Source of the DNA: Ceratorhiza oryzae-sativae
Lineage: Eukaryota; Basidiomycota; Agaricomycetes; Cantharellales; Ceratobasidiaceae
NCBI GenBank assembly: GCA_030998015.1
Contig: JARWMV010000090.1
Location: 1-62,621, forward strand
Reading direction: 5' to 3'
DNA: 62,621 nt
Below, one piece after another: positions 14,101 to 37,292 of the stretch. The translations under genes were made by a program, and so were the position numbers. Positions within the stretch are counted from its first letter, which is position 1. Every line of letters starts with the position of its first letter. The notes beneath the pieces are model-generated. The model did not search any database and had not been told where the DNA came from. It saw only the letters and a list, made by a program, of their open reading frames with translations.

Positions 14101-15724
14101 TGCTAGAGCATCTAGAGTACTGAGATATTGGGCTCCTTCAAGTGAATGAAGGATGTCTTGTTGCCTAGGTAGAGGGTATTCATCTGGTATAGCTACTGCA
14201 TTAAGCTTCCTGTAATCAATGCACAAGCGAGGCTTATTATTCCGCCATACTACAAGCACTGGGAAGCCCCAAGGGCTCTTAGATTCCTCAATTACACCTA
14301 AGCGCAACCAATCATCTATTTGCTTGTCTATAGCAGCCTTAGCTTCTTCACTTGGCCTATAAGGAGTTAAAGCAATTTCCTTTGTACCTGGTCTGAGATT
14401 AATCTCTACCCTGGCTGGGTAATTACCAAGTCTGCCATCTAATCCAAAAGCTTCAAAGTTCTTCTTCACCACCTTTTGCAAGCTTTTCTTCTGATCTGGA
14501 GTCAAATTGTCTCCCCAATGTACTTCTGCCAAGAGTCTTTCCCTAGGGACTGGCTCTGGGTCAGGCAGTTCAGCAGTTTTAGGGCCTCCTTCTGGCTGCT
14601 TTGAGAGTTCAATTCTTCAGCAGTAGGAGAAGGTACTTTGACTTCCTTCATAAGAGTATTTATTAGATGTGCCTTGGCTTCTCCTGCCTTCCTAAGTTCT
14701 TCAGGCAAATCTTTTTCTTTATCCAATGCAATCTTGGGGTCATGCATATATCCTATGACATGTCCTTTGGGTAAATGCACTGGCCTCTGAGAAAAGTTTA
14801 TCTGAATAGTCTTAGTAGCAGTGATGATGCTGTCTGTAGTTCCATGAACATCTAAGTTCCATTATTGCTTTCTAGACTACCTTCAATAAAACCTTCTTGC
14901 TGTCCTTCCTGGAATTCAACTAGAATAGGCACTTGTGTAATGAATTCAGCCTTTAAAAATACATCCCTAGCTAATTTAACTGGGGTAGTACCTTCAGGCC
15001 CTTTCTTTAAGGCTTTCTTCTTAGAAGATTTTTTCCTGTGAAAGGCTCTTCTCTCTAGGTTTGTCTTGAAGTCTGGTCTAGTGTAAACTTGAAATACATT
15101 TCCAGCTTCATCCAATCTTGGTTCAGTTTCTAATTCAATTACTTCAGCAGACCTACCAGAGTTGCCAAAGAGTATTCTGCTAGGAGAGGAAAGACGATCT
15201 AAAGAGATTCTATATTGGTTAGAAAAGTCATTACCCAGAATGAAAGGTACTTTCATTCCTTTCACTACATAGGCTTCTACCTGCATCTTTACAGGTCCAT
15301 CCTTAGTAGGGAAGGTTAAGTCTAATACTACATATCCTGTAATACTAGTTTTACCAGTCACTTGAATAAGATTTATCTTTTGGCCAGATTTCTCTTTAGG
15401 AGGTTGTTTCAAGCTAGTCAGAAAATTATAGCTAATCAGGGTAATATCAGAGCCTGAGTCAACTGTAATTTCTGTTAAGCCTTCTTCATTCCCTACCCTA
15501 GCCATAGCTACTGTAGGTCTAGTTCCCAAGAAATGAGTTCCTGAAGGACGTTCCATCACCTTTTTAAGAGTAATAGTTTTATCCTCAGGGATTGATTTAA
15601 GGTCAAGAGGCTCATTCCTAGTAGATAATTGAATAGAAAATGATTTGGTAGCCATTGTTTGATTTGCTAATGCATTATAATTGTGTACTGCCTGTATATC
15701 CTGGTCATCTGCATTTACTCCCAA
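11158..15724 (-). pseudogene. Element A1 pol: protease, RT, RNase H, integrase, chromodomain; several frame changes
   Basis: Domains in order: aspartic protease with TVDSGSDITLIS (about 15470); RT with FALVYIDDIVIYS (about 13920); RNase H starting YTDACDFGIAA (about 13470), then an insertion of roughly 45 residues before VIAYWSRLL and the later VSDHAALKW; an integrase finger (CDICQKAKPK, about 12340) and core with YHPQADGQSE (about 11990); a basic C-terminus; and a chromodomain around 11350-11180 (EVEEILDEK ... RYLTRFVGYPPEWDEW). The chromodomain places it among the chromoviruses. The reading frame changes by single bases at about seven points while residues stay conserved. As written no full Pol can be made. 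Confidence 0.88.
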
Positions 15725-19767: not shown

Positions 19768-20179
19768 TGTTACGGGTCAGGGTACACTTGAATATCTAGA
19801 GCTTAAGCAAATGTAGATATGTTAGTATACACTAATCGTACTCAATACTTCTTAGACTAGAGTAAGAAGGCTCAAAATAGTTGCAATGCGATCAAGTAAC
19901 ACTCAAGGTAGTCTTAATCTTTCACAGTGTAAACTGACTAATTTATAGGTATAAAGAGCAAGACTACTATGGTCAGGTTCCCTTAGATATCTTAAATGTA
20001 GTTCAGCCCTAGTCGCTTGGACTAACTGATACTAATCTTAATACTAGGCTTAAGCGATAGCTTATAGGATAGATGGTGGGCTGCCTAATGCGTGTACTTC
20101 CTCAGCTACAGGTACTTAGATTTCCTCTAATAGCTGGTACTTAATGTCACACTCAATCAGGCAATATTGTATCCTTATA

Positions 20180-20406
20180 CACTTGCTGACAAAAGTCTTG
20201 CAGCATGTGACCTCAACTGCGATTTTCTGGACCGTTCGTTGTACGATGGACGAACGCAGAGGTTTCAGCCCTCATTCGACTAGTATATTATGTAGACTAC
20301 TATCTAAACTATATATGTACGAAAAACGGTGCGCTCTCGACGCCTGTGAGATGAGATATGGCCATCTTCGCACGGTGGGGGGCTGCAAGACTTATGTAAG
20401 TGGCAA
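20180..20406 (+). repeat. Left terminal inverted repeat of the Tc1/mariner
   Basis: 227 bp, inverse of 21579-21805. Each arm carries the core AAGTCTTGCAGC at its outer end and an inverted copy of it (GCTGCAAGACTT) at its inner end, so the arm itself could fold back. Confidence 0.9.
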
Positions 20407-20477
20407 GCGCCCCTTGGACAGATACACAATTTTTGGGCAGTAGAATCATGGAAACATGTATTAATGAAAATAGAACT

Positions 20478-21501
20478 TTAGTACTGAGTGTTACCACCCT
20501 TCACATCAATTACAGCCTGTAGTCTAGATGGAATAGAATCATACAACTTCTCAATAAAACTATTAGGGATGCAATGCCACTCCTCCTCCAATGCCTTCCA
20601 CAAATCATCTTGGTTTCAAGGCAAAACAGTGCAAGAGTGAACCTTTCAATCCAAGAAGTCCCATACATGCTCAATAATATTAAGATCAGGGCTAGACGCA
20701 GGCCAAGGAGTGACAGGAATGTGATGAGACTGGAACCATTCCCAAGCAACGAGTGAAGTATGCTTCAGGTCATTGTCCTGCTGGAATATAATCTGGCGCA
20801 GCTTGAGCTTCTGATCCTTAAGTGTCCCTAGAAATGCATCTTGAAGGATCTTGGTGTACCTGACGCTGGTGAGTGTTCCATCGATGTGATAGAGGTGCCC
20901 CACACCTGCAGCTGTAATCACTCCCCACACCATGACACTCCCCCCACCGTGTTTGATGTGTTTCTTGGTGTTGAGAGGGTCCAACCCTTCGCCTGGCCTT
21001 CTCCACACATACTGCTTGCCATCTGACCCAAAAAATATTGAACTTGCTCTTGTCTGAAAAGGTGAACTGGCGCCACACCATCATTGACCATTTGATTCGC
21101 TCTGTGACCCAGGCAAGGTGGATACCCTTGTTTCAAGTATTAATGAAGGGAACCTTGTGCCTTATATATGCATGTAAGCCTACACCACGGAGAGCACAGC
21201 GGATTGTGGTGGGATGAAGGCCGGGAAAGAACTCGCGCTGAAGTGCAGTGGCTGTGTAGTTGCGAGTTCGAGTGATGGAAAGTGCAGCAAAGCAAACATT
21301 GGAAGGGGTGAGTTTGTGTGGGCACCCAGCCTTGGCCTTGGTGGAGTATACACTGCGAAGTTTCTTGACCCTCTTGCATATCTAGTGGACTGTAGTGGGA
21401 TGGATACAGAGCTCAGCACCAATCTTGTAAGTCGACATGCCCTGAGCGAGCATACTCATTGCAAGGGCTTGGGTTGCTGGATCAGAGTACTTGCCAGGCA
21501 T
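20478..21501 (-). pseudogene. Tc1-type DD34E transposase, inactivated
   Basis: The frame runs from ATG at 21501 (MPGKYSDPATQALAMS, helix-turn-helix region) to TAA at 20478, 1024 nt, i.e. 341 codons plus one extra base. The extra base is in a T run near 21037. The DDE domain shows FSDKSKF, GGGSVMVWG, QQDNDLKHTS and SSPDLNIIEHVW, with exactly 34 residues between the second Asp and the Glu. In-frame stops occur in the N-terminal domain (TAG), after the linker (TGA) and twice soon after the catalytic Glu (TGA). The TGA stops fit C-to-T change of CGA codons. The enzyme would cut and paste DNA at TA sites; this copy cannot. Confidence 0.92.
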
Positions 21502-21578
21502 AGTAGAGAGTGTTAGAAGAGACTCGGAAGCTGATACTTTACCAGTCGAAAGTTATTGGGCTTAAATGCGCTCGCTAT

Positions 21579-21805
21579 TTGCCACTTACATAAGTCTTGC
21601 AGCCCCCCACTGTGCGAAGATGGCCATATCTCATCTCACAGGCGTCGAGAGCGCACCGTTTTTCGTACATATATAGTTTAGATAGTAGTCTACATAATAT
21701 ACTAGTTGAATGAGGGCTTAAACCTCCGCGTTCGTCCATCGTATGACGAACGGTCCAGAAAATCGCAGTTGAGGTCACATGCTGCAAGACTTTTGTCAGC
21801 AAGTG
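21579..21805 (-). repeat. Right terminal inverted repeat of the Tc1/mariner
   Basis: 227 bp, matching 20180-20406 in inverse orientation up to the terminal TA. The boundary is where similarity stops at TTGCCACTTAC (21579). Confidence 0.9.
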
Positions 21806-22699
21806 TATATCTCTGTATATAAGATACAATGTCTCAGACAGTATATAACTAATATGGTACTTTATTCCTCAGTACTAGTTATATAAGAAATCACACACAG
21901 ACAAGAGAAATAGAAAGAGAAAAGAAACCAATAACCAGTCTGGGTTGAGTAGAGGGAGGTGGTCTGGAAGGGCCTCAGAGGAGGTCCTTTTATACCCTGA
22001 GGAGGGCATTCCAGAGCCAAATAGACACATGCATGCCAGTGCGATCATCAAAAGAGGGTACTGCTATACTTGGGGTACACCCTAGCCCAGTATAGGATAA
22101 AAGAGTAAAGACAGGGTGTGGATCGAAGGCATTGATGCATCTGAGACCTGCTATTGGCTTGTAGATCATATTATCATAGTATATACATGTAATGAATGGA
22201 GGCTGCATCTCAGTGAGTCATAAAGTGAGTCAGAGAAGCTTCTGGATCAATTTGGGAAGCTCTCCTGACTCACTGGAGTCATTAGATCTTGATTGATGGT
22301 CCAGTAAGATTCTAATGATCTTCGGGCCATTCCGGCGCGAGGATCTGGTGGATCGCGACGATCTTCGGGCAGCAGATACCGCCGAAGATTGGCTATCGAT
22401 AGAGCACAAGATCGCTTTGATAGCGTAAGCGGTTGCCGAGATATGAGCAGTGCGATGTTGCAATCAATATCTCCTGATAAGAGGAAATATCGCAACCTCT
22501 GTATCTCTCTGAGATCTTATCGTAAAAACTTAATAAAATATGCGTTGGAGAGCGGGAATTTTGTACTGTTTAATGAAACAGAAAATAGTACAATTCAGAG
22601 CGCATACAAATTTGAGTATTTCACAATTTAATTACAGAGGCATTGCTTGTTGGCAGAGCAGACTAAAATAATAGAAAATGTTAGTGATCCATAACACTT

Positions 22700-23462: not shown

Positions 23463-23482
23463 ATCCAATACTCAACTGTCCC

Positions 23483-24848
23483 ATGATGAACTTTATCAAC
23501 AATGGACCAAGCAAGGGAACACCAGAGCTAAGCAAGCAAGACAAACTACAGAGGTTGGTCTTGCTGTCACCAGGGCCCTGGGAAGCAAGCCCACCCCCTG
23601 AGCTAAGTTCTTCACAGCCTACCTTGATGGATCCTGAGCCTGAAGAGCAGAGGTGGCAAGGGCAAAGCAGTGCCAAGATGCTGAAATTTTGTGTGTAATC
23701 TCAAGCAGTGTTATTAATGTGGAGTACGTTGAGGGATGAGCCAACATCAGGGCTAGTGGCTCGGTAAGCAGCCTACTACAAAAGAAGCCTAGCAGAATAA
23801 CCTTTTATATATGCATATACATAGGTACAAGGCCTTCTGCTGGAGCTGGCCCAACCACTGGGCCACATTGGCAGTAGTAGAACAGCACAATCCTGAGGAA
23901 CCAAACTATGACCCTGAGTCCCCCCTCCACATCCACACCCTAACAATCAGCCAAGAATGCAAGGGTGGATGGAACACCCACAACACCAGAATCTGGGACT
24001 TCAAGGGGAACCACCCCAACATCCTGCCAAAGGATATAAAGGATGGACCAGGGGGGAATCCAGCATGGGATGCCTTCAACTACCTATGGAAGGCTGTGGG
24101 GGAAAATGGGGAGGAAGTGGAAGATCTGATGGCAGGGGATCTGACCCTTGAAGGATTGGAGGAGATTCTGCAAAAGGGATGAGGAGGAAAGCAATCAAGG
24201 CAACAAGCAGACCTGGAGGATGGGGAGGAGATTGTAGGGGCTGCCACCAAGGAGGAGTTTTACCACACATACAAACAACTCTGGCCCCTTCAGCTAACAA
24301 CAGCATGGAACTCTGTACATGCATATGCAGACTATACATACAAGAAGGATGCAGGACTCCTTGAGGTGATTCTGGTGGAACTGGAGATACCAGGGGAGAG
24401 GAGGCATGTAGACTGGGCAGACAAGTGGTTCAGGGAGGAACTGCAGGAAAGAAGGGCAGGAATGCAACACTGCATCCTAGTAATCGAACAAGAAACAGGA
24501 ATGGGGAAGACAGCCTATGCATGATCAAAGGGGTCCCACAGCTGAATGTGCAACACATGGAATGTGGGTGCATTGTCAGAAGAGGCTGACATCTGGATCC
24601 TGGATGATATGGTGGCCACTAATGGCAAATACTCACTCAAGGCTCTGAGCCAGTATGAAGTGGACTTCACAGGGTGCTACAGCCATGTGAAAACTATGAA
24701 GGTCCAGCCAACCATCATACTGGGCAACAGCTGGACAGCCATCACCAAATGCTGGTCTGACATAGAAGGAGAGGAAGGAGAAAGATGGGTGGCAAAGAAT
24801 GTGGAATGGGTAAACTCAGGGAGCCTGCTGTTCTTTGTATTCCCATAA
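23483..24848 (+). pseudogene. CRESS-DNA-virus-like Rep, intron-containing decayed copy
   Basis: Clear homologue of the Rep at 27670-28956 along its whole length, on the opposite strand. Recognisable are motif I (VLLMWSTL), an HUH-like HIHTLTIS, the third motif Tyr/Lys (FNYLWK), a damaged Walker A (ETGMGKT after Gln in place of Gly), Walker B-like IWILDDM and motif C IILGNS. A 61-nt intron-like segment (23764-23824, GTAAGC...CATAG) interrupts the frame between VAR and YKAF; its removal restores the frame. The C1 copy lacks it. At least four in-frame stops (TAA near 23696; TGA near 24180, 24523 and 24544) fit C-to-T decay. It ends 80 bp before the LTR of element C2. Element D sits against its 5' side. 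Confidence 0.85.
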
Positions 24849-24927
24849 AATACTACATTTTGGGTATTGCATACCAGCATTAGAAGCCTAACCAGATAAG
24901 ACAAGCCCAGGCACATTAAGACCATGG

Positions 24928-25483
24928 TGTTATGACATGTCAAATGGATATAACAGAGTAACCAAATATTTTTACAGATTTATGACATTTTTCCTAAGCG
25001 GAACGAGCCATAAACAAGGTCACGTGACCTCAGCACTTAACCAGCACTTACAGTGGTTACCCTGAACTTGCTCCAGCATTTCTCTCCATTGTTACTTGGA
25101 GCAAGGAGTGAGTTGTCACATGATCTCAGTGCTTACAGCATGATCATGTGACCTCAGTGCTTACCCCTTGGACCTTGTGTGGCTCTATAAGATTCAGAGC
25201 TGCACAAACTTAAGATAAACAATTACCTAAACCATAGTACTGTATATAACCTGCATCTACTGTGGATTGTGCTTAGATAATACATCCACAGCCACCACAG
25301 CCACAGGCATATATAAGAAGGATAAAGCAAGACTGGATGCCTCAGCTTGCTTTATCTCATCAACCACCATAGACCATAGCAAACACTGTAACTAGAACAC
25401 ACAATACATACTGCATAGCACCAGACCATCAACACAGCCACTACTTAAGTGCTTCACAAGGAAGCATCCAGAGGGTCATGACA
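24928..25483 (+). repeat. 5' LTR of element C2 (family C)
   Basis: 556 bp, TGTTATGACATG ... GGGTCATGACA, matching C1 LTRs in inverse orientation. It has a TATATAA promoter near 25312 followed by the sequence that can pair with the PBS. The CpGs seen in the C1 LTRs are mostly TpG or CpA here. Confidence 0.88.
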
Positions 25484-25603
25484 TTATAAAGCAAGCTCTT
25501 AACTTAACTAGTGGCAAACATAAGTATACTACACAGATACTAAGGGCTGAGTACACGAGAAACCAGCTAACTCCTGTGATACATAAGAGAACACAAAGAA
25601 ACT

Positions 25604-26691
25604 ATGTCACAGAGACCACAAACTCGATCTCAAAGCAGAGTGGCAAATAGTAGACCACAATCACCCAAACCCATTACTCCCCCAGAGGCTGAAGGTAATC
25701 CAGACAAGACCCTCCAAGGAATGCCAGGGGGGTTGCCACAAAACCCATGACCAGTGGCTCAACCTAACCCCACTTGGGCCCCCATCCTGGGAGGGCAAAT
25801 AGGGGGAATACCACTCTGCAGCCCTCAACCACCAATTCACCTGATAAATCCAGACCCAGAAGATATCTCAAATCCAGAGAGGGATGAGGTAGAAGATATG
25901 ACCTGAACCATATATGAACAAGGCATGGCCTTGGCAGAAGAGGCAAGGACACAACCCCAGCCAGGTTCCAGAGCCATAACCACTGCCAACCCTATTCACA
26001 CCATTGCCACCGCCATCAGGGTGGGGCTCAAGGAACTTAGAGACAATAACCATAGGGAACTAGAAAAGGCAATCATGGGCATAAATCAGTGTCAAATATC
26101 ACTAACCCAGCAAGAAGGAAACATGGACTGGATGGTAAGATCAATGGAAACATCCAACAAAAATGTCCTCTATGTGGCAAAGAACCAGGATGACCTAAAA
26201 GCAGAAATGGGGAACCTGATAAAAGAATTAAAGGACATCTCCATGGAAATAAACCAGGTACTGGGAATTCAAGAGCGAAAGCTCGAAAGCTTAGAGAAGA
26301 AAACTGAAAACACAGGGGAGATCCTGACTGCACTAGAACAATGGGTAACCGATCTAGGAAATGAGCTCCAGAAAACAACTGAAGCAGGAAGGCCAAGGGA
26401 AAGGACAGAAGAGACCAGGGGAAGAACTAGGGTGGTCATAGGAAGCCCCTCACAATCCCCCTCAGCCTCCCCAGTATGAACACCCTTTCTGGGAAGAACC
26501 TTCCAGGCTGAGTCCACAATAAGACCCCAAACAGAACCTCCATCCCAAGCAAACCAACCTACCCTTGCCACAAACCACACTCCTAAGGAGGTGCAACTAG
26601 GGAGACCCAGCAAATTTAATGGGAAAAAAGGGAAGGAAGCAGAGAACTTCATAATTGGCATGGAACTTTTCTTTGCTGACTATGACAAATC
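25604..26691 (+). pseudogene. Element C2 gag, 5' part
   Basis: ATG at 25604 (same start as C1 gag at 36280). The coiled-coil region (about 26010-26400) is well preserved (DDLKAEMGNLIKELKDIS). Stops interrupt it at about 25748 (TGA), 25903 (TGA) and 26477 (TGA). The capsid start is reached before the C1 insertion at 26692, and the frame resumes at 37176 for about 40 codons. It encoded the structural Gag precursor. Confidence 0.8.
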
Positions 26692-27360
26692 TGTCATGAC
26701 CCTCTGGAGGCTCCCTTGTGGAGCACTTAAGTAGTGGCTGCGTTGACGGTTTGGTGCTATGCAGTATGTATTGAGTGTTCTAATTACAGTGTTTGCTATG
26801 GTCTATGGTGGTTGACAAGATAAAGCAAGCTGAGGCGTCCAGTCTTGCTTTATCCTCCTTATATATACCTGTGGCTGCGGTGGCTGCAGACGTATTATCT
26901 AAGCACACTCCGCAGTAGGTGTAGGTTATGTATAGTACTATGGGTTAGGTAATTGTTTGTCTTAGGTTTGTGCGGCTCTGAATCTTATAGAGCCGCGCGA
27001 GGTCCGAGGGGTAGGCGCTGAGGTCACATGATCCTGCCGTAAGCGCCAAGATCACGTGACAACTCGCTCCTCGCTCCAAGTAACATGGGAGAGAAATGCT
27101 GGAGCAAGTTCAGGGTAACAACCGTAAGCGCTGAGGTCACGTGATCATGCTGTAAGCGCCAAGGTCACATGATAACTCGCTCCTCGCTCCAAGTAACATG
27201 GGAGAGAAATGCTGGAGCAAGTTCAGGGTAACCACCGTAAGCGCCGGCTAAGCACCAAGGTCACATGACCTTGTTTATGGCTTGTTCTGCTTAGGAAAAA
27301 TGCCATAAATCTGTAGAAATATTTGGTTGTTTTGTTATGTCCGTTTGACGGGTCATAACA
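26692..27360 (-). repeat. 3' LTR of element C1 (family C)
   Basis: 669 bp, reading TGTCATGACCC ... GGGTCATAACA on the plus strand. It contains two copies of a ~113-bp tandem repeat starting GCGCTGAGG (27015, 27128), each with TCACGTGA-type palindromes. Confidence 0.93.
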
Positions 27361-27377
27361 TTATCCCCCCCTTTGGA
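27361..27377 (-). other. Polypurine tract of element C1
   Basis: In element orientation the sequence before the 3' LTR is CCAAAGGGGGGGATAA. It abuts the LTR and is the expected primer for plus-strand synthesis. Confidence 0.8.
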
Positions 27378-27425
27378 CATGTCGTGGGGGACCTCGAGAC
27401 ATGGTTTAGTTCCTTATGCAAAAGG

Positions 27426-27552
27426 AATCTCATGCACCAAGGAGGTTAAGGGCGCTGGACTCGAACCGACGACCTTTCGGCTGATTCAGTATCGTTCGAT
27501 GAGGTCAGGCTGAGTCAGGCTAGACCCCTTAACCTCTCCGTTACATGAGATT
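27426..27552. other. Long hairpin with tRNA-like motifs between Rep and the 3' LTR of C1
   Basis: Arms 27426-27452 and 27525-27552 are inverse copies with few mismatches (AATCTCATG ... GGTTAAGGG). The loop holds GGTTCGAGTCC on the minus strand (27467-27457), a perfect pol III B-box/T-loop match. The plus strand of the same stretch (GGTTAAGGGCGCTGGACTCG) also resembles the D-to-anticodon part of a Ser/Leu tRNA. No complete cloverleaf can be drawn with a sensible anticodon. It could be a tRNA relic, a SINE piece or an RNA structure for 3'-end formation. Confidence 0.4.
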
Positions 27553-27669
27553 GTTTTTCTTTTCTTTGTTGTGGAGGTTATTTAGGGGTGGGGATTTGTC
27601 TGCTTCTTCTCAGAAAGCCCCAACTGTTTGGATGGGCATAGCAGAAGTTGTACAGTACCATAAATTATT

Positions 27670-28956
27670 CTAAGGGAATACAAAGAATGGCTTTCCTCCT
27701 GCATACACCCATTCCACATTTCTTGATACCCATAAGTCCCCTTCTTCCCCCTCTATGTCCGACCAACATTTCATGATTGCCAACCGGCTATTTCCCAGAA
27801 TGACTGTTGGCCATACCTTCATTGATTTCACATGCGCGTACCTGCCTGTGAAGTCTGCCTCGTACTGGCTCAGGGCCTTGAGCGAGTGCTTCCCATTCGA
27901 CTGGACCATGTCATCCAGGATCCAAATGTTGGCATCTTCCAACAAGTTGCCCATATTCCACACATTGCACATCCGGCTGTGGCAGCCCTTGGATTGTGCA
28001 TATGCCGTTTTCCCTGTTCCAGTTTCTCCTTCTATCACCAGGATGCGATGGCGCACCCCTCTTTCCTTCTTCTCGACCTCCTCGGCAAACCATCTGTCTG
28101 CTCGGTTGATGTGCTCCCGGTCTTCCAGGATCTCTAACTCCACAGGGATTGCAGGCATGCAACCCCGGTCTTCCTTGTATGTGTACTCGGCATATGCTCG
28201 TACCGAGTTCCACGTTGTCACCATCTGGAGGGGGCGGAGGCGCTTGAACGCCTGGTAGTACTCCTGTTTTGTTGCTGAGGCAACAATCTCCGTCCCATCC
28301 TCCAAGTCTGCCTCCATCCTTGACCTTTTTCCGCCCTTTCCCTTTACCAAAATCTCCTCCAACCTTTCCGAGGTCAGGTCCCCTGCCATCAGGTCCTCTA
28401 TCTCCTCGCCATTAGCTCCAACGTCCTTCCAGAGATAGTTGAAGGCCTCCCTTGCTGGGTTTCCTCCCAGTCTGTCCTTGAGGTCCTTCGGCAGGATGTT
28501 GGGGTGTTGCCCCTCGAAGTCCCAGAACCGGGTGTTCTGGGTGTTCCAGCTGCCCTTCCGTTCCTGACTGATGGAGAGGGCATGGACATGGAGGGGCTGG
28601 GCCAGGTCGTAGTTCGGTTCCTCAGGGTTGTGGTGTTCCACCACTGCCAAAGTCGCCCAATGATTTGGCCGTTGGCGGCAGAACGCCTCGTATCGGGCGA
28701 CGAGCCCACTTGAGGGCTGATCGCGTAGCTTCGACCAGGTCAGCAGCACCGCCCTGGTCTGGACGCGGAACCGAGGGGCCGGCGCGGTTTCAGTCAGCTC
28801 TTCGGACCCTTGATCCGTCGGCGTAGGCTGCATAGAAGCGGGCAAGGGGGCTCGGCTTGATACCAAGGGCGCTGGCAATGGCAACGCCGACCTCTGCCCT
28901 TTGCTTGATCCGCTTGGCTGGGGTGTTGCTGCATTCGATCCATTTCCACTTAGCAT
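27670..28956 (-). CDS. CRESS-DNA-virus-like Rep (HUH endonuclease + SF3 helicase) in element C1
   Basis: 428 aa, intact, ATG at 28956, about 80 nt downstream of a TATA box. After a Pro/Ser-rich N-terminus (residues 1-60) the nuclease domain shows motif I (VLLTWSKL), the HUH metal-binding motif (HVHALSIS) and motif III with the nucleophile Tyr and a Lys three residues on (FNYLWK). The helicase domain has Walker A GETGTGKT (about residue 307), Walker B-like IWILDDM and motif C VILGNS. This order is that of geminivirus/genomovirus-type initiators, which nick and join single-stranded DNA for rolling-circle replication. No intron. The gene is in the sense orientation of the retrotransposon, 309 bp from its 3' LTR. 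Whether it acts on the element is unknown; domestication or cargo are alternatives. Confidence 0.88.
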   Translation of the reverse strand: MLSGNGSNAATPQPSGSSKGQRSALPLPAPLVSSRAPLPASMQPTPTDQGSEELTETAPAPRFRVQTRAVLLTWSKLRDQPSSGLVARYEAFCRQRPNHWATLAVVEHHNPEEPNYDLAQPLHVHALSISQERKGSWNTQNTRFWDFEGQHPNILPKDLKDRLGGNPAREAFNYLWKDVGANGEEIEDLMAGDLTSERLEEILVKGKGGKRSRMEADLEDGTEIVASATKQEYYQAFKRLRPLQMVTTWNSVRAYAEYTYKEDRGCMPAIPVELEILEDREHINRADRWFAEEVEKKERGVRHRILVIEGETGTGKTAYAQSKGCHSRMCNVWNMGNLLEDANIWILDDMVQSNGKHSLKALSQYEADFTGRYAHVKSMKVWPTVILGNSRLAIMKCWSDIEGEEGDLWVSRNVEWVYAGGKPFFVFP

Positions 28957-29032
28957 CGTTTACAGTTTTAGAGGTATTTGGGGACTGGGAAGAGAGCATG
29001 AGAGTGCGGGTTATCTCGGGCCTTGTGCTTGT

Positions 29033-29040
29033 CTATATAA
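29033..29040 (-). promoter_or_regulatory. TATA box of the C1 Rep gene
   Basis: TTATATAG on the minus strand, 77-84 nt before the ATG at 28956. A short upstream ATG at 28999 in another frame would be near the transcript start. Confidence 0.5.
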
Positions 29041-29252
29041 GCTGCAAGGTCCGTTTTGATTGTCACATGACTCCGTCTTGCATTTGTTGTGATCACATGA
29101 CCTTGTTTCGGTGATGACGCATCTCCGAGGGGTGCCCTCCCATCCGTTCCTCCGCGTCGGCCTTGGTCCTCGCTACGCTCAGGGCCTCCGCTCCCCCACT
29201 TCAGTCAGTGCCCCCTCTCCAACCCCTCCGGTAGTTAGGGGATAGCGTATAT

Positions 29253-29385
29253 TCACGTGACTAGGCTAGGTCATGTGATTCCTGTGCTTTGTTGTTTGTT
29301 TTCTGGCAGGTGGTCATGTGACTAGGCTAGGTCATGTGATTCCCATGCTTTGTTGTTTGTTTTCTGGCAGATGGTCACGTGTCTG
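29253..29385. repeat. Two 61-bp direct repeats plus a partial third between the divergent Rep and plus-strand genes
   Basis: Units 29253-29313 and 29314-29374 differ at only a few bases; a third begins TCACGTGT at 29375. Each unit has two TCAYGTGA palindromes (for example TCACGTGA, TCATGTGA) and the string GACTAGGCTAGG. The same GGTCAYGTGA word recurs in the family C LTRs. Position next to the Rep promoter recalls iterons of CRESS-DNA replicons, but I find no TAATATTAC-type nonanucleotide hairpin in 28957-29414. Confidence 0.75.
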
Positions 29386-29498
29386 TTGGTGTCACCTGAC
29401 CAGTCCTTGTTTTGATGTTTGTGCAAGTTATTGTGTTGCACCGTGATTTTTTAATGTTTGTGGTTTTGTTGTTTTCCTTCCTCATCCTGTTCTTTACT

Positions 29499-30040
29499 AT
29501 GCGTGTTATTTCCCTTAACTACAATCCCCTTGACTGCACCTGCTGGTCTCTCCCTGAGGGGGAGTACTGCGCCTACTGTGATGCTGTGTGTGACGCCTCC
29601 CTTGAAGATTTCTATCAAGGTGTTGGGGACTGGTTCTTCTGTGGGGTGCCAGGTATGTGTGTTTGTTCTTCGTCATTCTCACGTAGCTAACTTGTTCTGT
29701 AGAAGAGCGCATCCTCCTTGATGGTCAGGCCCATGAGGCCACCCTTGAGCGTGTCTGGGCGCTTGTTGATCAGGAGTACAAGTCCTTTGAGGAGCGGTCT
29801 CACCAGGCTGCTCTTGCTGAATTCTTCGAGGAGGGCTCTGCTCCCTTGTTTGATGAGGCTTCGCCCTTTGTAGCATCTGGTTCTGGGTGTTTCCAGAACT
29901 ACATGGCTGACTTCCCAGGGGGGGAGGCCCCCTGGCTGTTGCCTGAGAACCAGGCTGGTGGTTCTGCAGCCTGTACTACTAGGAAGGATAAGAAGGCAAA
30001 AAAACCCTATGCCCAGCCCCTCAAGGGCAAGAGAAAATAG
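29499..30040 (+). CDS. Antisense spliced gene in element C1, Cys-rich N-terminus, basic tail
   Basis: Plus strand, opposite to the element. Exons 29499-29652 and 29703-30040, intron 29653-29702 (50 nt, GTATGT ... GCTAAC ... TGTAG). The total is 492 nt, exactly 163 aa plus stop. The ATG at 29499 is preferred; an in-frame ATG at 29415 would add a hydrophobic segment (FLMFVVLLFSFLILFF) and give 191 aa. Cys residues cluster in residues 12-33 (CTCW ... CAYCDAVC), possibly metal-binding. The middle is acidic and helical. The tail is Lys-rich (KDKKAKKPYAQPLKGKRK) like a nuclear localisation signal. It diverges from Rep across 540 bp and ends 80 bp from the convergent 272-codon ORF. No family recognised. 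Confidence 0.6.
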
Positions 30041-30120
30041 AAAACATTTTGAAATGTATTATTGTATGATAGTGAAAATTATTCTTAAGACATTCCAAAA
30101 ACATGTGATAGGCCCGATAG

Positions 30121-30939
30121 TCACAAGGGCTCCGTGTCCAGCAGGGGCACTTCCTCCAAGGCGCCTGCCAGCTCATCCTCCCATTTGGCCCAGTCCGTTT
30201 GGACTCCCTCTCGGGCTGGGTCCGGGGTTGGTTCCTTCATGGTTACTCTTGGCTCCTCCTCCTTCACCACCAGGGACTCCAGGCTTGCCGTGAGGCTCGA
30301 CATATCCATATCATAACTGTGCAGGTTTGGGCGTACCTTCACCCAGTTACGGAAGTCGGCCAAGTTTGCTTCCTTCAACCTGATGGCAGTAAACATTTCA
30401 TCAGTGGTAGTGGCCTCAAGCAGTCCCACATACGGTGCCGCCAGTGCCAGCTTCCACTGCTCCAACAGGACCCTGGCCTGCTGCTCTACTTCCCAATCTG
30501 CATTAGTCGTTTGGAGGCCCCCCGCCTCCCTCTGTTCCTTGGTGGCATAGACCACCCCTGTCACCGTTGCCCCTACTATGTTGTCGATTACATACATTGG
30601 CGTGCGCAACATTGCGCTCTTGGTTGTCGGCCTTCGGACTCCCTGCCACCACAGTACTCCTAACTTGGGGTCCTTGTAAAGGCTGTCATTAAGCCAGTTC
30701 CTCTTGTCCCTATCCTTCTTTGGGATGTACACCAAGTTGGCCCCTGGCAGTAAGCTCTCCGCAATCATTTGGTGTTCCTCCACGCTCGGGGTGTACTGGC
30801 CTGGCTTCCTGCAGTTTTCCTTGCCTGGGTAGGGAGCTGGCCGTCTTGTGGTGGGCGCCAACCGGATGCGGGTGACCTGATTATTAACCAGGGGTGCAAA
30901 ATGGCCTGAGGGAAACGTGGGGCGAGTGGCGAAAGGCAT
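30121..30939 (-). CDS. 272-aa protein of unknown family in element C1
   Basis: ATG at 30939, uninterrupted to 30121. A TTTAAAAG box at 31021-31028 overlaps the pol stop codon and lies about 85 nt upstream, so it may have its own promoter. N-terminal part basic and Pro-rich; the middle (about 50-180) looks globular (LGVLWWQGVRR; MYVIDNIVGATVTGVVYAT); the C-terminal 60 residues are acidic (KEEEPRVTMKEPTPD). No intron is required. It is convergent with the antisense gene. I do not recognise it; it does not resemble any accessory gene of A1. Confidence 0.6.
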   Translation of the reverse strand: MPFATRPTFPSGHFAPLVNNQVTRIRLAPTTRRPAPYPGKENCRKPGQYTPSVEEHQMIAESLLPGANLVYIPKKDRDKRNWLNDSLYKDPKLGVLWWQGVRRPTTKSAMLRTPMYVIDNIVGATVTGVVYATKEQREAGGLQTTNADWEVEQQARVLLEQWKLALAAPYVGLLEATTTDEMFTAIRLKEANLADFRNWVKVRPNLHSYDMDMSSLTASLESLVVKEEEPRVTMKEPTPDPAREGVQTDWAKWEDELAGALEEVPLLDTEPL

Positions 30940-31023
30940 AGTGAAATTGGGTTTATGTGTTGTGGTGCAAGTGTGGTGGTAGAGTGGACTCTGGCCTTTC
31001 TTGGGTATCCTGGATGGCTCCTT

Positions 31024-34000
31024 TTAAAGCTTTCCAGATCCTCGTTTGGTTCTCTTTGGCCTGCCTTTCGAGTCACCTGAGTGCTGACTTGTCTTGACTG
31101 GCATTGGTGCGTCTGGTAAGCGCCTTTGCAAGTCATTTAGAACCTCTTTCATGTCAGCAAACTTGCTGGCACGTTCCATTGTGTCCTCTATTGGGTCGTA
31201 GCCCTTCCATCTGATTTGGTAAAACAGCTCGCCATTCCGCCATTCATAATTTGCAATGTGGTCCACCTTGTATTCCTCCTCTCCTTTTTCCGTTATGATT
31301 GGTGGTGGTTTGGCCTGCCTTCTTTGGAAGTCTTTATCTTCTGTGAATGGCGAGAGGAGATTTACATGGAATACATTGTGTACACGTATGGTTTTAGGTA
31401 GGTCCAGGCGATATGCATGGGATGAGATCTTTTCTGTGATTTCAAAGGGCCCCCCTTTTCGGTTGTCCAGTTTCTTGGAGGGTCTCTTGGACAAGAGGTT
31501 TGTTAGGAGCAGCCAAACCTTGTCTCCTACCTTGAATTCCCTCCCTTTCTTTTCCATTTGTTGGTGTAACTCCATTGAGGCTCTTGCCTCATCCCATACC
31601 TTTTCCATTTGATTACGCATGTTGTCTGCAGCAGGTGCCTCAGATGGTTCTTCTCCCTCTTGGACAACCCATCTTGGGTTTTTTCCATATACTGTTTCAA
31701 ATGGGGTTTGTCCTGTTGTAGCATTTACGTGGTTGTTATGGCAGAATTCGGCAATGGGTAACCATTTTACCCAATCATCTTGTCTATAATTGCAGAAGGT
31801 TCTTAAGAACCCTTCTACCCATTGATTTGTCCTTTCCGACAGACCATCTGTTTCTGGATGGAAAGCAGTGGAGAATCTGGGCTTTGTCCCAATTCCTTTG
31901 TATAGGGCTTTTAGGAATTGGCTGTTAAAGGTTGGCCCTCAGTCTGAGACAGTGGTTTCTGGGGTCCCGTGATGTCTCCATACTTCCCTTATGAATATTT
32001 CTGCCAGTTCTTCTGCATTGGTGCTCTCCAGACATGGTACAAAATGGGCCTGCCAGGAGAAGCGATCTACAACTGTCAAGATACTGTCGTACCCCTTTGA
32101 GACAGGTAATTTGACAATGAAATCATATGCGACATCTGCCCATGGTTTCCATGGGATTGGTAAGGACTTCAGGGGAGTGCCTTGTTTGTGTCCTTTGCTT
32201 CTTTGACACGTTTCACAAGATTCCACGTATCGGTTTACTTGGGCCTTCATTCCTGGCCAATAGTAATCCCTTGATAGTAATTCTAGTGTTCGGGCTTGTC
32301 CCTGATGACCTGCCACTGGGGTGTCATGGCACTCCTCAAGGAGACTCAACCTCAAGTCCTTGTCATCCGGGATGTAGAGCCTATCATCATACCTTAATAG
32401 GCCCTCCTTCATTTCATACCGTCTAAATTCCTTCTGTACTGAGGGCGGTAGTTGTTCTTTATTTGCCACGCTCAGCCTTAAGGATCTGATAGATTCGTCT
32501 TCTTCCTGAGCTTCTTTAAGCTCTTCCCAGAAATTCCCCTGTACTTCTGCCATGAAACCTATGAACCTTTCTTCTGGAATCATGATCTGTGGTTCCATAG
32601 GGGTATCCCCATGGTCGCTCCTTCTGGAAAGGGCATCTGGCTTCTGTGAGAGTTTCCCTGGTCTATACACAATCTGAAAATTGAAGGGTGCCAGAGTGAG
32701 ATACCATCTGGCATGCCTTCTATTCCACATCTGGGCATTTTGCCAGTACTGGAGGTTCCTATGGTCAGTGTATATCACAATAGGTTCCTCTGTCCCTTCT
32801 AAGTATAACCTCCAGTGCTCTAAGGACCTAACAATTGCAAGCAACTCCTTGTCATAGGTGTCATAATTTTTCTCTGGTGGGGTGAAGCTCTTCGATAGGA
32901 AGGCAATTGGATGCAATCGGTTGTCATCACCCTTTTGGCTTAGTACCGCCCCCATGGCCACTCCTGAGGCATCTGTTTCCAGTATGTATGGCCTGTTTGG
33001 GTTTGGGTGGATCAGGACCGGTTCTCTTGCTACTGCTTCTTTGATAGCTTCAAATGCTTCCTGTTGTTTTCTTTCCCACAGGAATTTGACATCTTTTTGG
33101 GTGAGATCTGTGAGGGGTTTGGCTAAGGTACTAAACTTCTCTATCCACCTTCTATAGAACCCCACGAAGCCTAGGAAGGCTTGGACTTCTTTTACTGTGT
33201 TAGGTTCTGGCCATTCTAGAACTGCCTTTACCTTTTCCTTTTCCATCGATATCCCTTCTGGGGATATGACAATTCCAATGAAGCTTACCTCCTTCACAAA
33301 GAACTGACACTTGTGTGGTTTGAGGAAGAGGTGGTTTTCCCTCATTCTTCTTAACACTTCCCTGACATGTTGTACGTGTTCTTCCCTGTTTCTGGAAAAC
33401 ACTAGTACATCGTCCATGTAGATTACCACATAATCGTCTATTATATCACGGAACTTTTCCATCATGAACCTGGTAAAGGTTCTTGGTCCTTCTTTTACTC
33501 CGAATGGCATGACCAAGCATTCAAACTGGCCTTCTCCTGTCCTGAAAGCTGTTTTCCATTCGTCTCCCTCTTTTACCCTGATGTTGTTGAACCCCCATCG
33601 AACATCCATTTTTGAATAGATGGTTGCATCCTTCAGTCTCTCAATCAATTCTATTTGGATTGGAAGTGGAAACCTGTCTGGCTTGGTGATGTCATTCATC
33701 TTACGGTAGTCGACTACCAACCTAAGCCCTCCATCTGCTTTGTTCACATAGAAACAGGGTGCAGCTACAACTGACTGGCTGGGCCTTATTTTCCCGTTTC
33801 TTAGTTCCTCCTCTAGGTACTCCCTGAGCGCCTTTGTTTCTGCTGGCGACATACTGTACCTCTTTGCAGGCTTTGGCAGCTGCTCCCTCGATCAGGTCCA
33901 TTTTGAAGTCTAGGTTACCTGGTGGGGTGGAAGTTCTCGGAAACCTTCTTCCCCAAATAGGTCTTCAAAATCCCTAAATTCTTCTGGGATTTGTAGGCTT

Positions 34001-34434
34001 TCACTTGCTGCCCTTGCCTTGATTTCGTCTGGGTATGAGATGGTAAGGTCTTTCCAATCTATGATAGGTTCTGCTTCTTCAAGCCATTCTTTCCCTAGGA
34101 CTATGTCAGTGTCACCTAGGGTCATTACATAAAGGGAGCATTTTAGTGTCTTCCCTTCCACCTTGATGTTTAGTTCTGCCCTTTCTTCTATGGCATCCTT
34201 GATTTCATTTCCATCAATGGCCACAATTGATTTCTTGTGTTTGAGGGGAGTGGTTGGAATCCCTTTTTCCCTTGAATAGGCCTTATCGATGAAGTTGGTT
34301 GAAGATCCTGAGTCAATCAGCGTCTTAGCCAGTTCCATGATTCCCTCTACCATAGTGTATATTATTGATTGATTACTAGACTTCTTGAGGTAACATACAT
34401 CTGTGGTAGGGGTTATATTGGGGTCCTCCAACAT
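31024..34434 (-). pseudogene. Element C1 pol: protease, RT, RNase H, integrase, chromodomain; near-intact
   Basis: Protease with TLIDSGSSTNFID (about 34320). RT from about 33880 with VVIYMDDVLVFS (about 33425). RNase H with LETDASGVAMGAVLS and VIYTDHRNLQYW. Integrase finger (HDTPVAGHQGQ ... CETCQRSKG, about 32330-32200), core DVAYDFIVKLP and FHPETDGLSERTNQW (about 31860). GPF motif and chromodomain at about 31290-31130 (YKVDHIANYEW ... YQIRWKGYDP). Defects: two single-base frame changes near 33880-33925 and one TGA near 31940 where CGA is expected. The long ORF 33852-31939 (637 codons) is otherwise clean. It drives reverse transcription and integration; the chromodomain would steer insertion to marked chromatin. 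Confidence 0.9.
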
Positions 34435-34451
34435 GGAAGTGGTAGGACCAA

Positions 34452-36280
34452 TTAGTTTTCCGACTCAGAGCTGCTTTCTTCCTCAACTTGTCTGCTGGCC
34501 TTCCCTTGTATCTTAGCTTTGTCGTAGGTCCACTGGCCTTGGCATTCCTTCAGGACATGCCCTGATTTACCGCATTTGATACAGAGTCCTTCTTTCCTTC
34601 GCCTGTCCTTTTCACTGTTTGGTATCCTTACCATGTTGTTGGTTTGGGTATTCCCCTGTTTGCCGCTGGTCCCTAAAGGCTTGTTCCCCCCTTGTTTGTA
34701 TTTTGCTGGTGCCCAGGTTGAATTTGATGAGTTGCTGGTCCTTGTATTCATTTTCTGGTTCGCAAACTGCATGTCGTCCATTTTGCAGGCAAAGTCAATT
34801 AATTGATCTAAGGTATATGATGGACCTTCAGCCTCATTTGCCAGTACTTCAATCCTTAAGATCTCTTGTCGTACTTCGGGTTTTAACCCTTCCCTGAATT
34901 GGTCCTTGAGGGCTTCCTGGTTCCAGTCTACCTCTTGGATCAGGATCCGGAATTGGGTAGCATAATCCAATGCACTCTTGGTCTGTGTTAATTTCCTTAG
35001 TTTCCGGATGGTCTTTTCCTTTATGACTGGGTCATTAAAAGCATCCAGGAATCCCTTCCTGAAATCCTTCCAGGATGCAAGAATACCTGTGTGTTCGCCT
35101 GCTATAGTTTCCGGCGGTAAGGTTGTGCCCAGTTTGCTGCTTCCCCATCCTCCATGTTCATTAGCACAGCAGATATCTTTTTTCGGTCATCAAAGGCTGA
35201 TTCGTCATAGTCAGCAAAGAAAAGTTCCATGCTGATTATGAAGTTCTCTGCTTCCTTCCCCTTTTTCCCATTAAATTTGCTGGGTCTCCCTAGTCGCCTC
35301 CTTAGGAGTGTGGTTTGCAGCAAGGGTAGGTTGGTTTGCTTGGGATGGAGGTTCTGTTCGGGGTCTTATTGTGGACTCAGCCTGGAAGGTTCTTCCCAGA
35401 AAGGGTGTTCGTACTGGGGAGGCTGAGGGGGATGTGAGGGGCTTCCTATGACCACCCTAGTTCTTCCCCTGGTTTCTTCTGTCCTTTCCCTTGGCCTTCC
35501 TGCTTCAGTTGTTTTCGGAGCTCATTTCCTAGATCGGTTACCGTTGTTCTAGTGCGATTAGGATCTCCCCTGTGTTTTGGTTTTCTTCTCTAAGCTTTCG
35601 AGCTTTCGCTCTTGCATTCCCAGTACCCGGTTTATTTCCATGGAGATGTCCTTTAATTCTTTTATCAGGTTCCCCATTTCTGCTTTTAGGTCGTCCTGGT
35701 TCTTTGCCACATAGAGGACATTTTTGTTGGATGTTTCCATTGACCTTACCATCCAGTCCACGTTTCCTTCTTGTCGGGTTAGTGATATTTGACACTGATT
35801 TATACCCGTGATTGCCTTTTCTAGTTCCCTATGATTATTGTCTCTAAGTTCCTTGAGCCCCGCCCTGATGGCTGTGGCAATGGTGTGAATAGGGTTGGCA
35901 GTGGCTATGGTTCCAGGACCTGGCTGGGGTTGTGTCCTTGCCTCTTCCGCCAAGGCCGTGCCTTGTTCGTATATGGTTCGGGTCATATCTTCTACCTCAT
36001 CCCTCTCTGGATTTGAGATATCTTCTGGGTCTGGATTTATCAGGTGAATTGGCGGTTGAGGGCTGCGGAGTGGTATTCCCCCTATTTCCCCTCCCAGGAT
36101 GGGGGCCCGAGTGGGGTTGGGTTGAGCCACTGGTCGTGGGTTTTGTGGCAACCCCCCTGGCATTCCTTGGAGGGTCTCATCTGGGTTACCTTCAGCCTCT
36201 GGGGAAGCAATGGGTTTGGGTGATTGTGGCCTACTATTTGCCACTCTGCTTTGAGATCGAGTTTGTGGTCTCTGTGACAT
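34452..36280 (-). pseudogene. Element C1 gag with coiled coil and zinc knuckle; frame changes
   Basis: ATG at 36280 (MSQRPQTRSQSR). N-terminal basic and Pro-rich segment, then a long coiled coil (about residues 140-235), a second disordered segment, a capsid beginning RPSKFNGKKGKEAE (about 35290) and a knuckle CIKCGKSGHVLKEC (about 34590-34545). Compared with C2, three single-base deletions lie within about 80 bp (35575, 35545, 35518 approximately). Together they restore the frame, so only a short stretch is garbled. Another change falls near 35110-34970. Confidence 0.8.
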
Positions 36281-36387
36281 AGTTTCTTTATGTTCTCTTA
36301 TGTATCACAGGAGTTAGCTGGTTTTCTTGTGTACTCAGCCCTTAGTATCTGTGCAGTATACTTATGTTCGCCACTAGTTAAGTTAAG

Positions 36388-36399
36388 AGCTTGCTTTAT
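36388..36399 (-). other. Self-priming PBS of element C1
   Basis: Two bases inside the 5' LTR the element reads ATAAAGCAAGCT. It does not begin TGG as a tRNA PBS would. It is a perfect 12-base complement of AGCTTGCTTTAT in the LTR (36530-36541), located about 30 bp downstream of the LTR TATA box, i.e. at the expected mRNA 5' end. This is the layout of Tf1-type self-primed reverse transcription. C2 has the same 12 bases at 25486-25497. Confidence 0.75.
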
Positions 36400-36401
36400 A
36401 A

Positions 36402-37170
36402 TGTCGTGACCCTCTGGAGGCTCCCTTGTGGAGCACTTAAGTAGTGGCTGTGTTGACGGTTTGGTGCTATGCAGTATGTATTGAGTGTTCTAATTACAGT
36501 GTTTGCTATGGTCTATGGTGGTTGACAAGATAAAGCAAGCTGAGGCGTCCAGTCTTGCTTTATCCTCCTTATATATACCTGTGGCTGCGGTGGCTGCGGA
36601 CGTATTATCTAAGCACACTCCGCAGTAGGTGTAGGTTATGTACAGTACTATGGGTTAGGTAATTGTTTGTCTTAAGTTTGTGCGGCTCCGAATCTTATAG
36701 AGCCGCACAAGGTGAGGGTAGGCGCTGAGGTCACGTGATCCTGCGTAAGGCGAGATCACGTGACAACTGCTCCTCGCTCCAAGTAACATGGGAGAGAAAT
36801 GCTGGAGCGAGTTCAGGGTAACCGTAAGCGCTGAGGTCATGATCATGCTGTAAGCGCCAAGGTCACGTGACAACTGCTCCTCGCTCCAAGTAACATGGGA
36901 GAGAAATGCTGGAGCGAGTTCAGGGTAACCACCGTAGGCGCTGAGGTCACGTGATCATGCTGTAAGCGCCAAGGTCACATGACAACTCGCTCCTCGCTCC
37001 AAGTAACATGGGAGAGAAATGCTGGAGCAAGTTCAGGGTAACCACCGTAAGCGCCGGCTAAGCGCCGAGGTCACGTGACCTTGTTTATGGCTTGTTCCAC
37101 TTAGGAAAAATGCCATAAATCTGTAGAAATATTTGGTTGTTTTGTTATGTCTGTTTGACGGGTCATAACA
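36402..37170 (-). repeat. 5' LTR of element C1 (family C)
   Basis: 769 bp. It is the same as the 3' LTR but has three copies of the ~110-bp repeat (starts 36722, 36828, 36938) instead of two. Minus-strand TATA at 36569-36577; the predicted transcription start is near 36541. Confidence 0.93.
36530..36541 (-). promoter_or_regulatory. Predicted 5' end of C1 mRNA, complementary to the PBS
   Basis: AGCTTGCTTTAT in element orientation, 29-36 nt downstream of the TATATATAA box. It is also the 3' arm of an inverted repeat with GATAAAGCAAG about 20 bp upstream in element orientation. Confidence 0.6.
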
Positions 37171-37292
37171 AAATCAGCCTTTGACAACCAAAAAAAGATA
37201 TCTGCTGTGTTAATGAACATGGAGGACAGGGAAGCAGCAAACTGGGCACAACCTTACTGCTGGAAACTACTAGCAGGCCAATGCACAGGTAT

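Follow-up and report, generated by a model that had tools for sequence, protein, structure and literature searches.

A 62,621-nucleotide (nt) stretch of the Ceratorhiza oryzae-sativae genome (contig JARWMV010000090.1, numbered C90 among the 253 contigs of the 48.8 Mb assembly GCA_030998015.1; the whole stretch is hereafter the window) holds a Ty3-type chromovirus, which we call C1. Between pol and its 3' long terminal repeat (LTR), C1 carries an intact gene for a protein of 428 amino acids (aa) with the ordered motifs of Rep, the rolling-circle initiator of circular Rep-encoding single-stranded DNA (CRESS-DNA) viruses. The gene is a regular part of C1's family, recurs at the same place in a sister family and is under purifying selection. 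RNA-based and DNA-based replication modules are taken to distinguish one class of mobile element from another. To our knowledge, no mobile element has so far been shown to encode a reverse transcriptase together with a functional rolling-circle initiator, and the C1 family would be the first if it uses both modes.

A Rep-like gene as a standard part of the C1 family

The features that matter most for the argument are these, in window coordinates:

26692..37170, minus strand: element C1, Ty3/chromovirus carrying the Rep gene, defined by its LTR pair and target site duplication (TSD)
26687..26691, no strand: TSD AAATC, left copy, read at the edge of C1
37171..37175, no strand: TSD AAATC, right copy, read at the edge of C1
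26692..27360, minus strand: 3' LTR, 669 nt, from comparison of the LTR pair
36402..37170, minus strand: 5' LTR, 769 nt, from the same comparison; exceeds the 3' LTR through internal repeats
27361..27374, minus strand: polypurine tract AAAGGGGGGGATAA, directly before the 3' LTR, identical in 32/32 distinct full-length copies
27426..27551, minus strand: conserved hairpin, 126 nt, 23 stem pairs, between Rep and the polypurine tract, from comparison of copies
27670..28956, minus strand: Rep-like gene, 428 aa, uninterrupted open reading frame (ORF), intronless in the C1 family
28957..29498, no strand: bidirectional intergenic region, with TATATA at 29033-29040, two 61-bp repeats at 29253-29374 and six TCAYRTGAY palindromes
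29499..30040, plus strand: divergent spliced gene, 163 aa, exons 29499-29652 and 29703-30040
30121..30939, minus strand: 272-aa gene, between the chromodomain and the divergent gene; an ORF with 144 genome matches and no Pfam domain

The original prediction had described this layout (an intact gene with the HUH and superfamily 3 (SF3) motifs, a divergent spliced gene, repeats in the region they share and a 272-aa ORF, all between LTRs flanked by AAATC), and each part could be located. It had also proposed that other copies be searched for Rep at the same position. Every one of the 32 distinct full-length copies examined has the gene there, as do 17 of the 20 loci picked by their chromodomain and three of four sister loci. 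On the prediction's own refuting condition (other copies without Rep, or Rep with separate boundaries), this result speaks for integral cargo. Scoring covered 98 of 253 candidates and puts the number of Rep places in the genome at 98 or more; a sister-type query, for which 150 of 210 candidates were scored, gives at least 151 matches. Both figures are minima because part of the candidates went unscored. The 32 distinct copies come from 39 full-length gapless entries. Behind Rep, every one of them has the polypurine tract GTCCAAAGGGGGGGATAA and then the LTR start TGTTATGAC, with the LTR starting 242-312 nt past the last Rep codon, and Rep therefore lies inside the element, without boundaries of its own. 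The start of the divergent gene is found within 1.5 kb in 31 of these copies. By coordinates, a 272-aa gene stands no more than 8 kb upstream of Rep in 84 of 98 Rep places, and no more than 8 kb downstream of 93 of the 97 top-ranking chromodomain ORFs (the best 97 of 150 rows).

A second sample was formed by the 20 loci ranked just below the window by their chromodomain ORF, chosen regardless of Rep. The order chromodomain, 272-aa gene, divergent gene on the opposite strand, Rep and LTR is present in 17 of them, with Rep or the 272-aa gene in pieces at some and with three (L037-L039) resembling near-duplicates of each other; exon 2 of the divergent gene is found in all 17. Among the remaining three, the contig stops in L032, L040 passes into an inverted LTR and Rep, and L050 passes into another retroelement. 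The arrangement extends to a sister family, sampled at four loci whose chromodomain ORF shares 68-72% identity with that of C1. C1's gene order is kept in L052, L053 and L054, with a 272-aa homolog in pieces (32-41%) and exon 1 of the divergent gene at 61-65%. Rep is itself in pieces in L054; downstream of Rep, L052 and L053 have the hairpin, a polypurine tract and an LTR that shares about 67.5% identity with that of C1. The fourth locus, L051, has a 272-aa homolog and a faint trace of the divergent gene but no Rep, and other retroelements match its distal part.

Rep is under purifying selection. The ratio of nonsynonymous to synonymous differences (pN/pS), pooled over the 120 pairs of 16 stop-free distinct copies, pairs that are not independent of each other, is 0.18, where neutral simulations preserving mutation spectrum and CpG context (n=20) yield ratios of 0.68-0.73 with 2.5 stops per copy. 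Masking of CpG-type changes lowers the observed ratio to 0.11. At these loci the chromodomain ORF has a ratio of 0.20 (neutral 0.56-0.65), and from this similarity it follows that Rep is constrained about as tightly as the chromodomain end of pol. For the divergent gene the ratio is 0.17 in exon 1 (neutral 0.53-0.57) and 0.30 in exon 2 (neutral 0.68-0.75), the neutral ranges for this gene and the chromodomain coming from five simulations each. Across families, C1 Rep compared with L052, L053 and a relic in the window (exon 2) gives a dN/dS of 0.09-0.10 with synonymous sites near saturation (proportion of synonymous differences, pS, about 0.70), and two decayed sister Reps set against each other give 0.80, which is the neutral decay expected after insertion. 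A Rep-like gene has been kept in a gag-pol element while two subfamilies diverged to this extent, yet residues 86-428 are still about 69% identical between C1 and L052 or L053. Because the gene has been retained for so long, dual-mode use of the element can be tested directly. Stops of the CpG-deamination kind are found in 16 of the 32 full-length Rep copies, which suggests that the family is methylated.

The loci are also mosaic. In L031-L050, identity to the window is 98-99% for chromodomain DNA, against 67-95% for the 272-aa gene and 87-96% for both Rep and the LTR, and the types of the latter three are mixed in varying combinations, as if templates had been switched in reverse transcription; the truncated or interrupted loci L032, L040 and L050 do not enter these ranges.

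Identity of the 428-aa protein

CRESS-DNA virus Reps, such as those of geminiviruses and genomoviruses, have an HUH motif, YxxK, Walker A, Walker B and motif C, and their genomes place a divergent gene pair around an intergenic region. C1 shares both the motif order and this layout. Its protein reads, in order, RAVLLTW (motif I), LHVHA, YLWK, GETGTGKT, WILDD and VILGN, so that HUH, a single YxxK, Walker A, Walker B and motif C follow each other as in CRESS-type Reps. None of 200,000 protein shuffles matches the six-motif pattern, and the one match among the 47 window frames of at least 150 aa is the Rep gene itself. Across 11 homologs, H123, Y174, K177, K316, D348, D349 and N389 do not vary at all and H125 hardly varies. 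The best profile match is to Gemini_AL1_M (PF08283), the central domain of geminivirus Rep, in the homolog P0010 (E 0.001, 19.5 bits against a cut-off of 24), where it spans profile positions 11-106 of 107 directly ahead of the P-loop; no other Pfam family matches near its full domain length at the right place. The same profile is found at E up to 1 in nine of 31 homologs, and a genome profile search did not single out the Rep copies. On the strength of its motifs and of this one marginal profile match, the 428-aa protein is very probably a Rep. The original prediction that this Rep is of CRESS type is supported by the ordered motifs and not by any significant profile match.

Several results weigh against it. 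The strict whole pattern fits only 12 of 32 proteins of at least 340 aa, the window's own included, and several of those that fail it are truncated or shifted gene models. Gemini_AL1 (PF00799) has no match in the window proteins, the homologs or the whole genome, and a PDB sequence search with two alignments gave none either. Both AlphaFold models are too poor to use (mean predicted local distance difference test scores, pLDDT, of 33 and 37), and fold searches of PDB and BFVD run with such a model returned no match at E <=0.001. Six of the 50 hits that the viral search lists are named Reps; they are given no weight because none reaches E <=0.001. No search of any kind produced a significant profile or fold match for the protein. 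Compared with CRESS-DNA viruses, then, the C1 Rep is too distant for a significant profile match, comes with no known nonanucleotide origin and no recognised capsid gene, and is borne by a retroelement.

Named relatives of the protein are all from Ceratobasidium sp. (AG-Ba, 394, 395, 414, 428 and UAMH 11750), and the rest are jgi and lgn entries. Two scans of viral contigs found no viral relatives, and tblastn gave three unconvincing rows among plasmids (E 9) and none among phages. A second frame that overlaps Rep exon 1 (AKFFAAY...) is present in the AG-Ba models P0011, P0012, P0014, P0018 and P0019 and, in a different species, at about 2383-2704 of L053; it could reflect either an overlapping gene or faulty annotation.

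Possible roles of Rep and rival explanations

We lean, tentatively, towards a role for Rep on extrachromosomal DNA of the element itself, where it is predicted to nick and unwind and to support rolling-circle copying; we put this role ahead of others since neither enzymatic half has been lost and the module seemingly has its own promoter. Rep would be expressed from the conserved TATA element of the bidirectional region, and its HUH nuclease and SF3 helicase would nick and unwind the circular complementary DNA (cDNA) of the element. The start site might be the TCAYRTGAY sequence common to the LTR and the intergenic region, or perhaps the conserved hairpin. Rolling-circle copying would then multiply the extrachromosomal element DNA, and the additional copies would supply the integrase. 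More doubtful is the fuller proposal of a two-mode element, copied through RNA by its reverse transcriptase and, between rounds, multiplied as circular cDNA by its own Rep from the hairpin or from Rep-binding repeats.

Candidate signals for such a process are found on both sides of Rep. The TATATA element ahead of the gene is invariant in 31 aligned copies. The window has 45 TCAYRTGAY matches on both strands (23 palindromic sites) where 4.9 are expected, a count raised by three LTR copies; 14 of the sites are in LTRs, six in the C1 intergenic region, one in the relic's intergenic region, two elsewhere and none in C1 genes. They may serve host factors or Rep. The hairpin fits a strict pattern in 30 of 32 copies, the other two having a changed letter in the outer arm, and it is also present in both sister copies, L052 and L053. 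Over 28 distinct rows, 98.9% of stem cells are paired, the loop is divergent and 14 pairs never vary. Two-sided changes affect two of the 23 pairs, in just three cells; in shuffles that ignore relatedness, 0/500 reach three cells and 18/500 reach two pairs, and further pair types are unremarkable (195/500). Support for pairing is thus moderate. The hairpin has no Rfam match; its loop GGTTCGAGTCC resembles a tRNA B box, and it may be a signal for RNA export, priming or replication.

Against copying of element DNA by Rep stand two further results. A TAATATTAC-like nonanucleotide is absent from the C1 intergenic region, the region 3' of Rep, the LTR and two sister intergenic regions. None of 42 Rep-LTR units continues into a second element with its gag leader (in three more units the LTR end lies outside the locus), which means that there are no concatemers among them. 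The missing known origin and missing concatemers are real counter-evidence, and integration as single units would mask an extrachromosomal rolling circle. What looked like a concatemer in the window (Rep at 23.8-24.8 kb, LTR, gag) was rejected: it is a sister relic, ending at 24927, that abuts a C1-type element.

Alternatively, the Rep-like protein may serve as an accessory factor on the host side, for instance by weakening silencing, bringing in DNA polymerase and S-phase factors or stimulating recombination, while element DNA is copied through RNA only. Geminivirus Reps act on their hosts in these ways. We rank this host-directed role close behind action on element DNA, as an alternative that we find rather doubtful but not far-fetched. 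Selection and a fixed position would fit it equally well, the CpG-type stops in half of the copies are a sign of methylation-type attack on the family, and the lack of a recognisable origin and of concatemers fits it too; but the catalytic tyrosine, the HUH histidines and both enzymatic halves are kept, and a pure adaptor would need none of them. A nickase of HUH type that serves integration or cDNA processing (opening of circles, target choice or second-strand priming), with no rolling-circle synthesis, is in our view unlikely. All 42 Rep-LTR units pass into other flanking sequence, and since no second units follow, any DNA role must yield ordinary single insertions. The SF3 helicase half is just as conserved, however, which points to processive unwinding.

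One might suppose that the protein is no Rep at all, rather a different P-loop ATPase in which HxH and YxxK arose by chance, and the failure to find a significant profile or fold match speaks for this. We consider it improbable, given that no shuffle reproduced the six ordered motifs, that the catalytic residues are invariant and that Gemini_AL1_M matches at near-full length. That Rep is a one-off nested insertion or a passenger seems to us most improbable. In its favour, the 272-aa gene was not scored upstream in 14 of 98 Rep places (two of which, on C53 and C62, begin less than 500 nt from a contig end), and in one copy of 32, L004, no start of the divergent gene was found within 1.5 kb. The same position before the polypurine tract in 32/32 copies, the like arrangement in the sister family and the selection on the gene all speak against a passenger, and a one-off insertion into C1 itself is ruled out by the chromodomain-picked loci, by those 32 copies and by the sister family.

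Anatomy of C1, its relatives and known systems

The remaining parts of C1 and the two older elements beside it are:

36387..36401, minus strand: primer-binding site TTATAAAGCAAGCTC, read from the sequence
35558..36280, minus strand: gag start, an ORF with 95% pairing with 25560-26309
34452..34970, minus strand: gag end with CCHC zinc knuckle (PF14787, 0.0009, under the family cut-off)
33910..34434, minus strand: aspartyl protease (PF08284, 2.7e-09)
31939..33852, minus strand: reverse transcriptase, RNase H and integrase H2C2 (PF00078, 8.7e-34; PF17917, 3.2e-36; PF17921, 2.7e-23)
31024..31620, minus strand: integrase C-terminus with chromodomain (PF00385, 1.2e-05; PF24626, 1.3e-20)
24928..26691, plus strand: older element of the C1 family (LTR 24928-25483, leader, gag), broken by C1, from repeat comparison
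23463..24927, plus strand: sister-family relic, 94% identical to L053, with Rep exon 1, intron 23764-23824, exon 2 to about 24845 and several stops

C1 has the Ty3 domain order of protease, reverse transcriptase, RNase H, integrase and chromodomain, the last scoring 25.6 bits against a cut-off of 25.1 (PF00385). Its LTRs begin with TGTTATGACC and have TG...CA ends, which with the short TSD is as expected of a chromovirus. The element was said to be complete and recent; the LTR pair and TSD bear out its outline, but identity between the LTRs is only 96.5%, with 23 mismatches over 665 aligned columns and a further 108 columns of gaps, gag is split over several frames and pol has in-frame stops. 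Rep is still open. The LTR mismatches are transitions in 22 of 23 cases, and 13 are of CpG type. C1 sits in the gag of the older element of its own family, which resumes at 37172. Twelve nt of the primer-binding site pair with the LTR stretch AGCTTGCTTTAT (26820-26831). Tf1-type elements prime themselves through complementarity of this kind, and by analogy the pairing suggests Tf1-like self-priming for C1.

The divergent gene runs from an ATG at 29499 to the stop codon at 30038-30040, interrupted by a GT-AG intron at 29653-29702; it encodes a basic C-terminus and has 162 genome matches. An intron-sized gap is present in all 45 locus entries with both exons (overlapping loci counted separately), with a strict donor pattern in 26 and an acceptor-like AG in 44. 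The end of the AG-Ba model P0027 weakly resembles its product (E 0.011), a match on which we do not rely. For the 272-aa protein, no homolog at E 0.001 was found among 932 candidates, and in a check for capsid genes neither it nor exon 2 of the divergent gene matched any Pfam family.

Reps of the sister type, the relic's included, have an intron (GTAAGC...CATAG) inside codon 88, and the gene models P0023, P0055 and P0061 have additional residues where it sits. Codon 88 is crossed unbroken in all 98 scored Rep rows, and the C1 family therefore lacks that intron; the 32 counted copies, having been selected as gapless, are alone uninformative here. Exact loss of the intron would be expected if spliced sense RNA had been reverse transcribed. 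Because the divergent gene is antisense, its own intron cannot be removed from the genomic RNA of the element. A more distant chromovirus, L055 (chromodomain 53%), has a weak 272-aa homolog (21%, E 4e-07) and, within 5 kb, neither Rep nor the divergent gene. This single locus is slender evidence, but it points to acquisition of the 272-aa gene first and the Rep pair later, and L055 could possibly serve as an outgroup for dating the capture of Rep.

C1 resembles Ty3/Gypsy chromoviruses of fungi (Metaviridae), with LTRs, a 5-bp TSD, a polypurine tract, a zinc knuckle, the order protease to chromodomain and, probably, self-priming. Its family differs from them in adding, after pol, the 272-aa, antisense spliced and Rep-like genes, and a hairpin before the polypurine tract. 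Helitrons join their Rep to an SF1 (Pif1-type) helicase and make no TSD, whereas C1 has SF3-type motifs, LTRs and a TSD and thus lacks the Helitron characters. Closer in one respect is a geminivirus-like transposon of Tuber melanosporum: its description reports 42 Rep genes or remnants, terminal inverted repeats (TIRs) of 37 bp, transposase ORFs, an interrupted Rep ORF and no obvious TSD (PMC3198968). There, too, a fungal genome holds many copies of a Rep-like gene that belongs to a mobile element, but the C1 family has LTRs, a reverse transcriptase, a TSD and many open Rep ORFs under selection. The Pfam scans made found no transposase between pol and the LTR, and the C1 family does not have the TIR-and-transposase character. 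The C1 family suggests riding in a retrotransposon as a route by which genes like those of single-stranded DNA viruses could spread in fungal genomes.

Extra genes in LTR elements are not new. As in C1, gag-pol elements of bdelloid rotifers have gained an additional ORF; the types of this ORF3 that the abstract names are an env of paramyxovirus origin, a GDSL esterase and a DEDDy exonuclease, some of them enzymatic and one viral, and a rolling-circle Rep is not among them (PMC5408684). Plant Retand elements likewise have a long region between pol and the 3' LTR with antisense ORFs and tandem repeats; their antisense ORFs are of TRP28 type, the lineage is not a chromovirus one, and the abstract does not name Rep (PMC11963269). 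In the open-licence literature, judged mainly from listings, we found no report of Rep inside an LTR retrotransposon, and a term search in a paper on Laccaria elements met neither 'geminivirus' nor 'Rep protein' (PMC3411680).

Other mobile elements share the contig with C1. Fragments of reverse transcriptase or integrase at 476-3683 and 12090-14334 of the window, 33-42% identical to those of C1, belong to further retroelement families. An ORF at 20646-21008 resembles, by eye and with no search made, a fragment of a Tc1/mariner transposase, and it is flanked by 231-bp inverted repeats that are 97% complementary (20176-21809).

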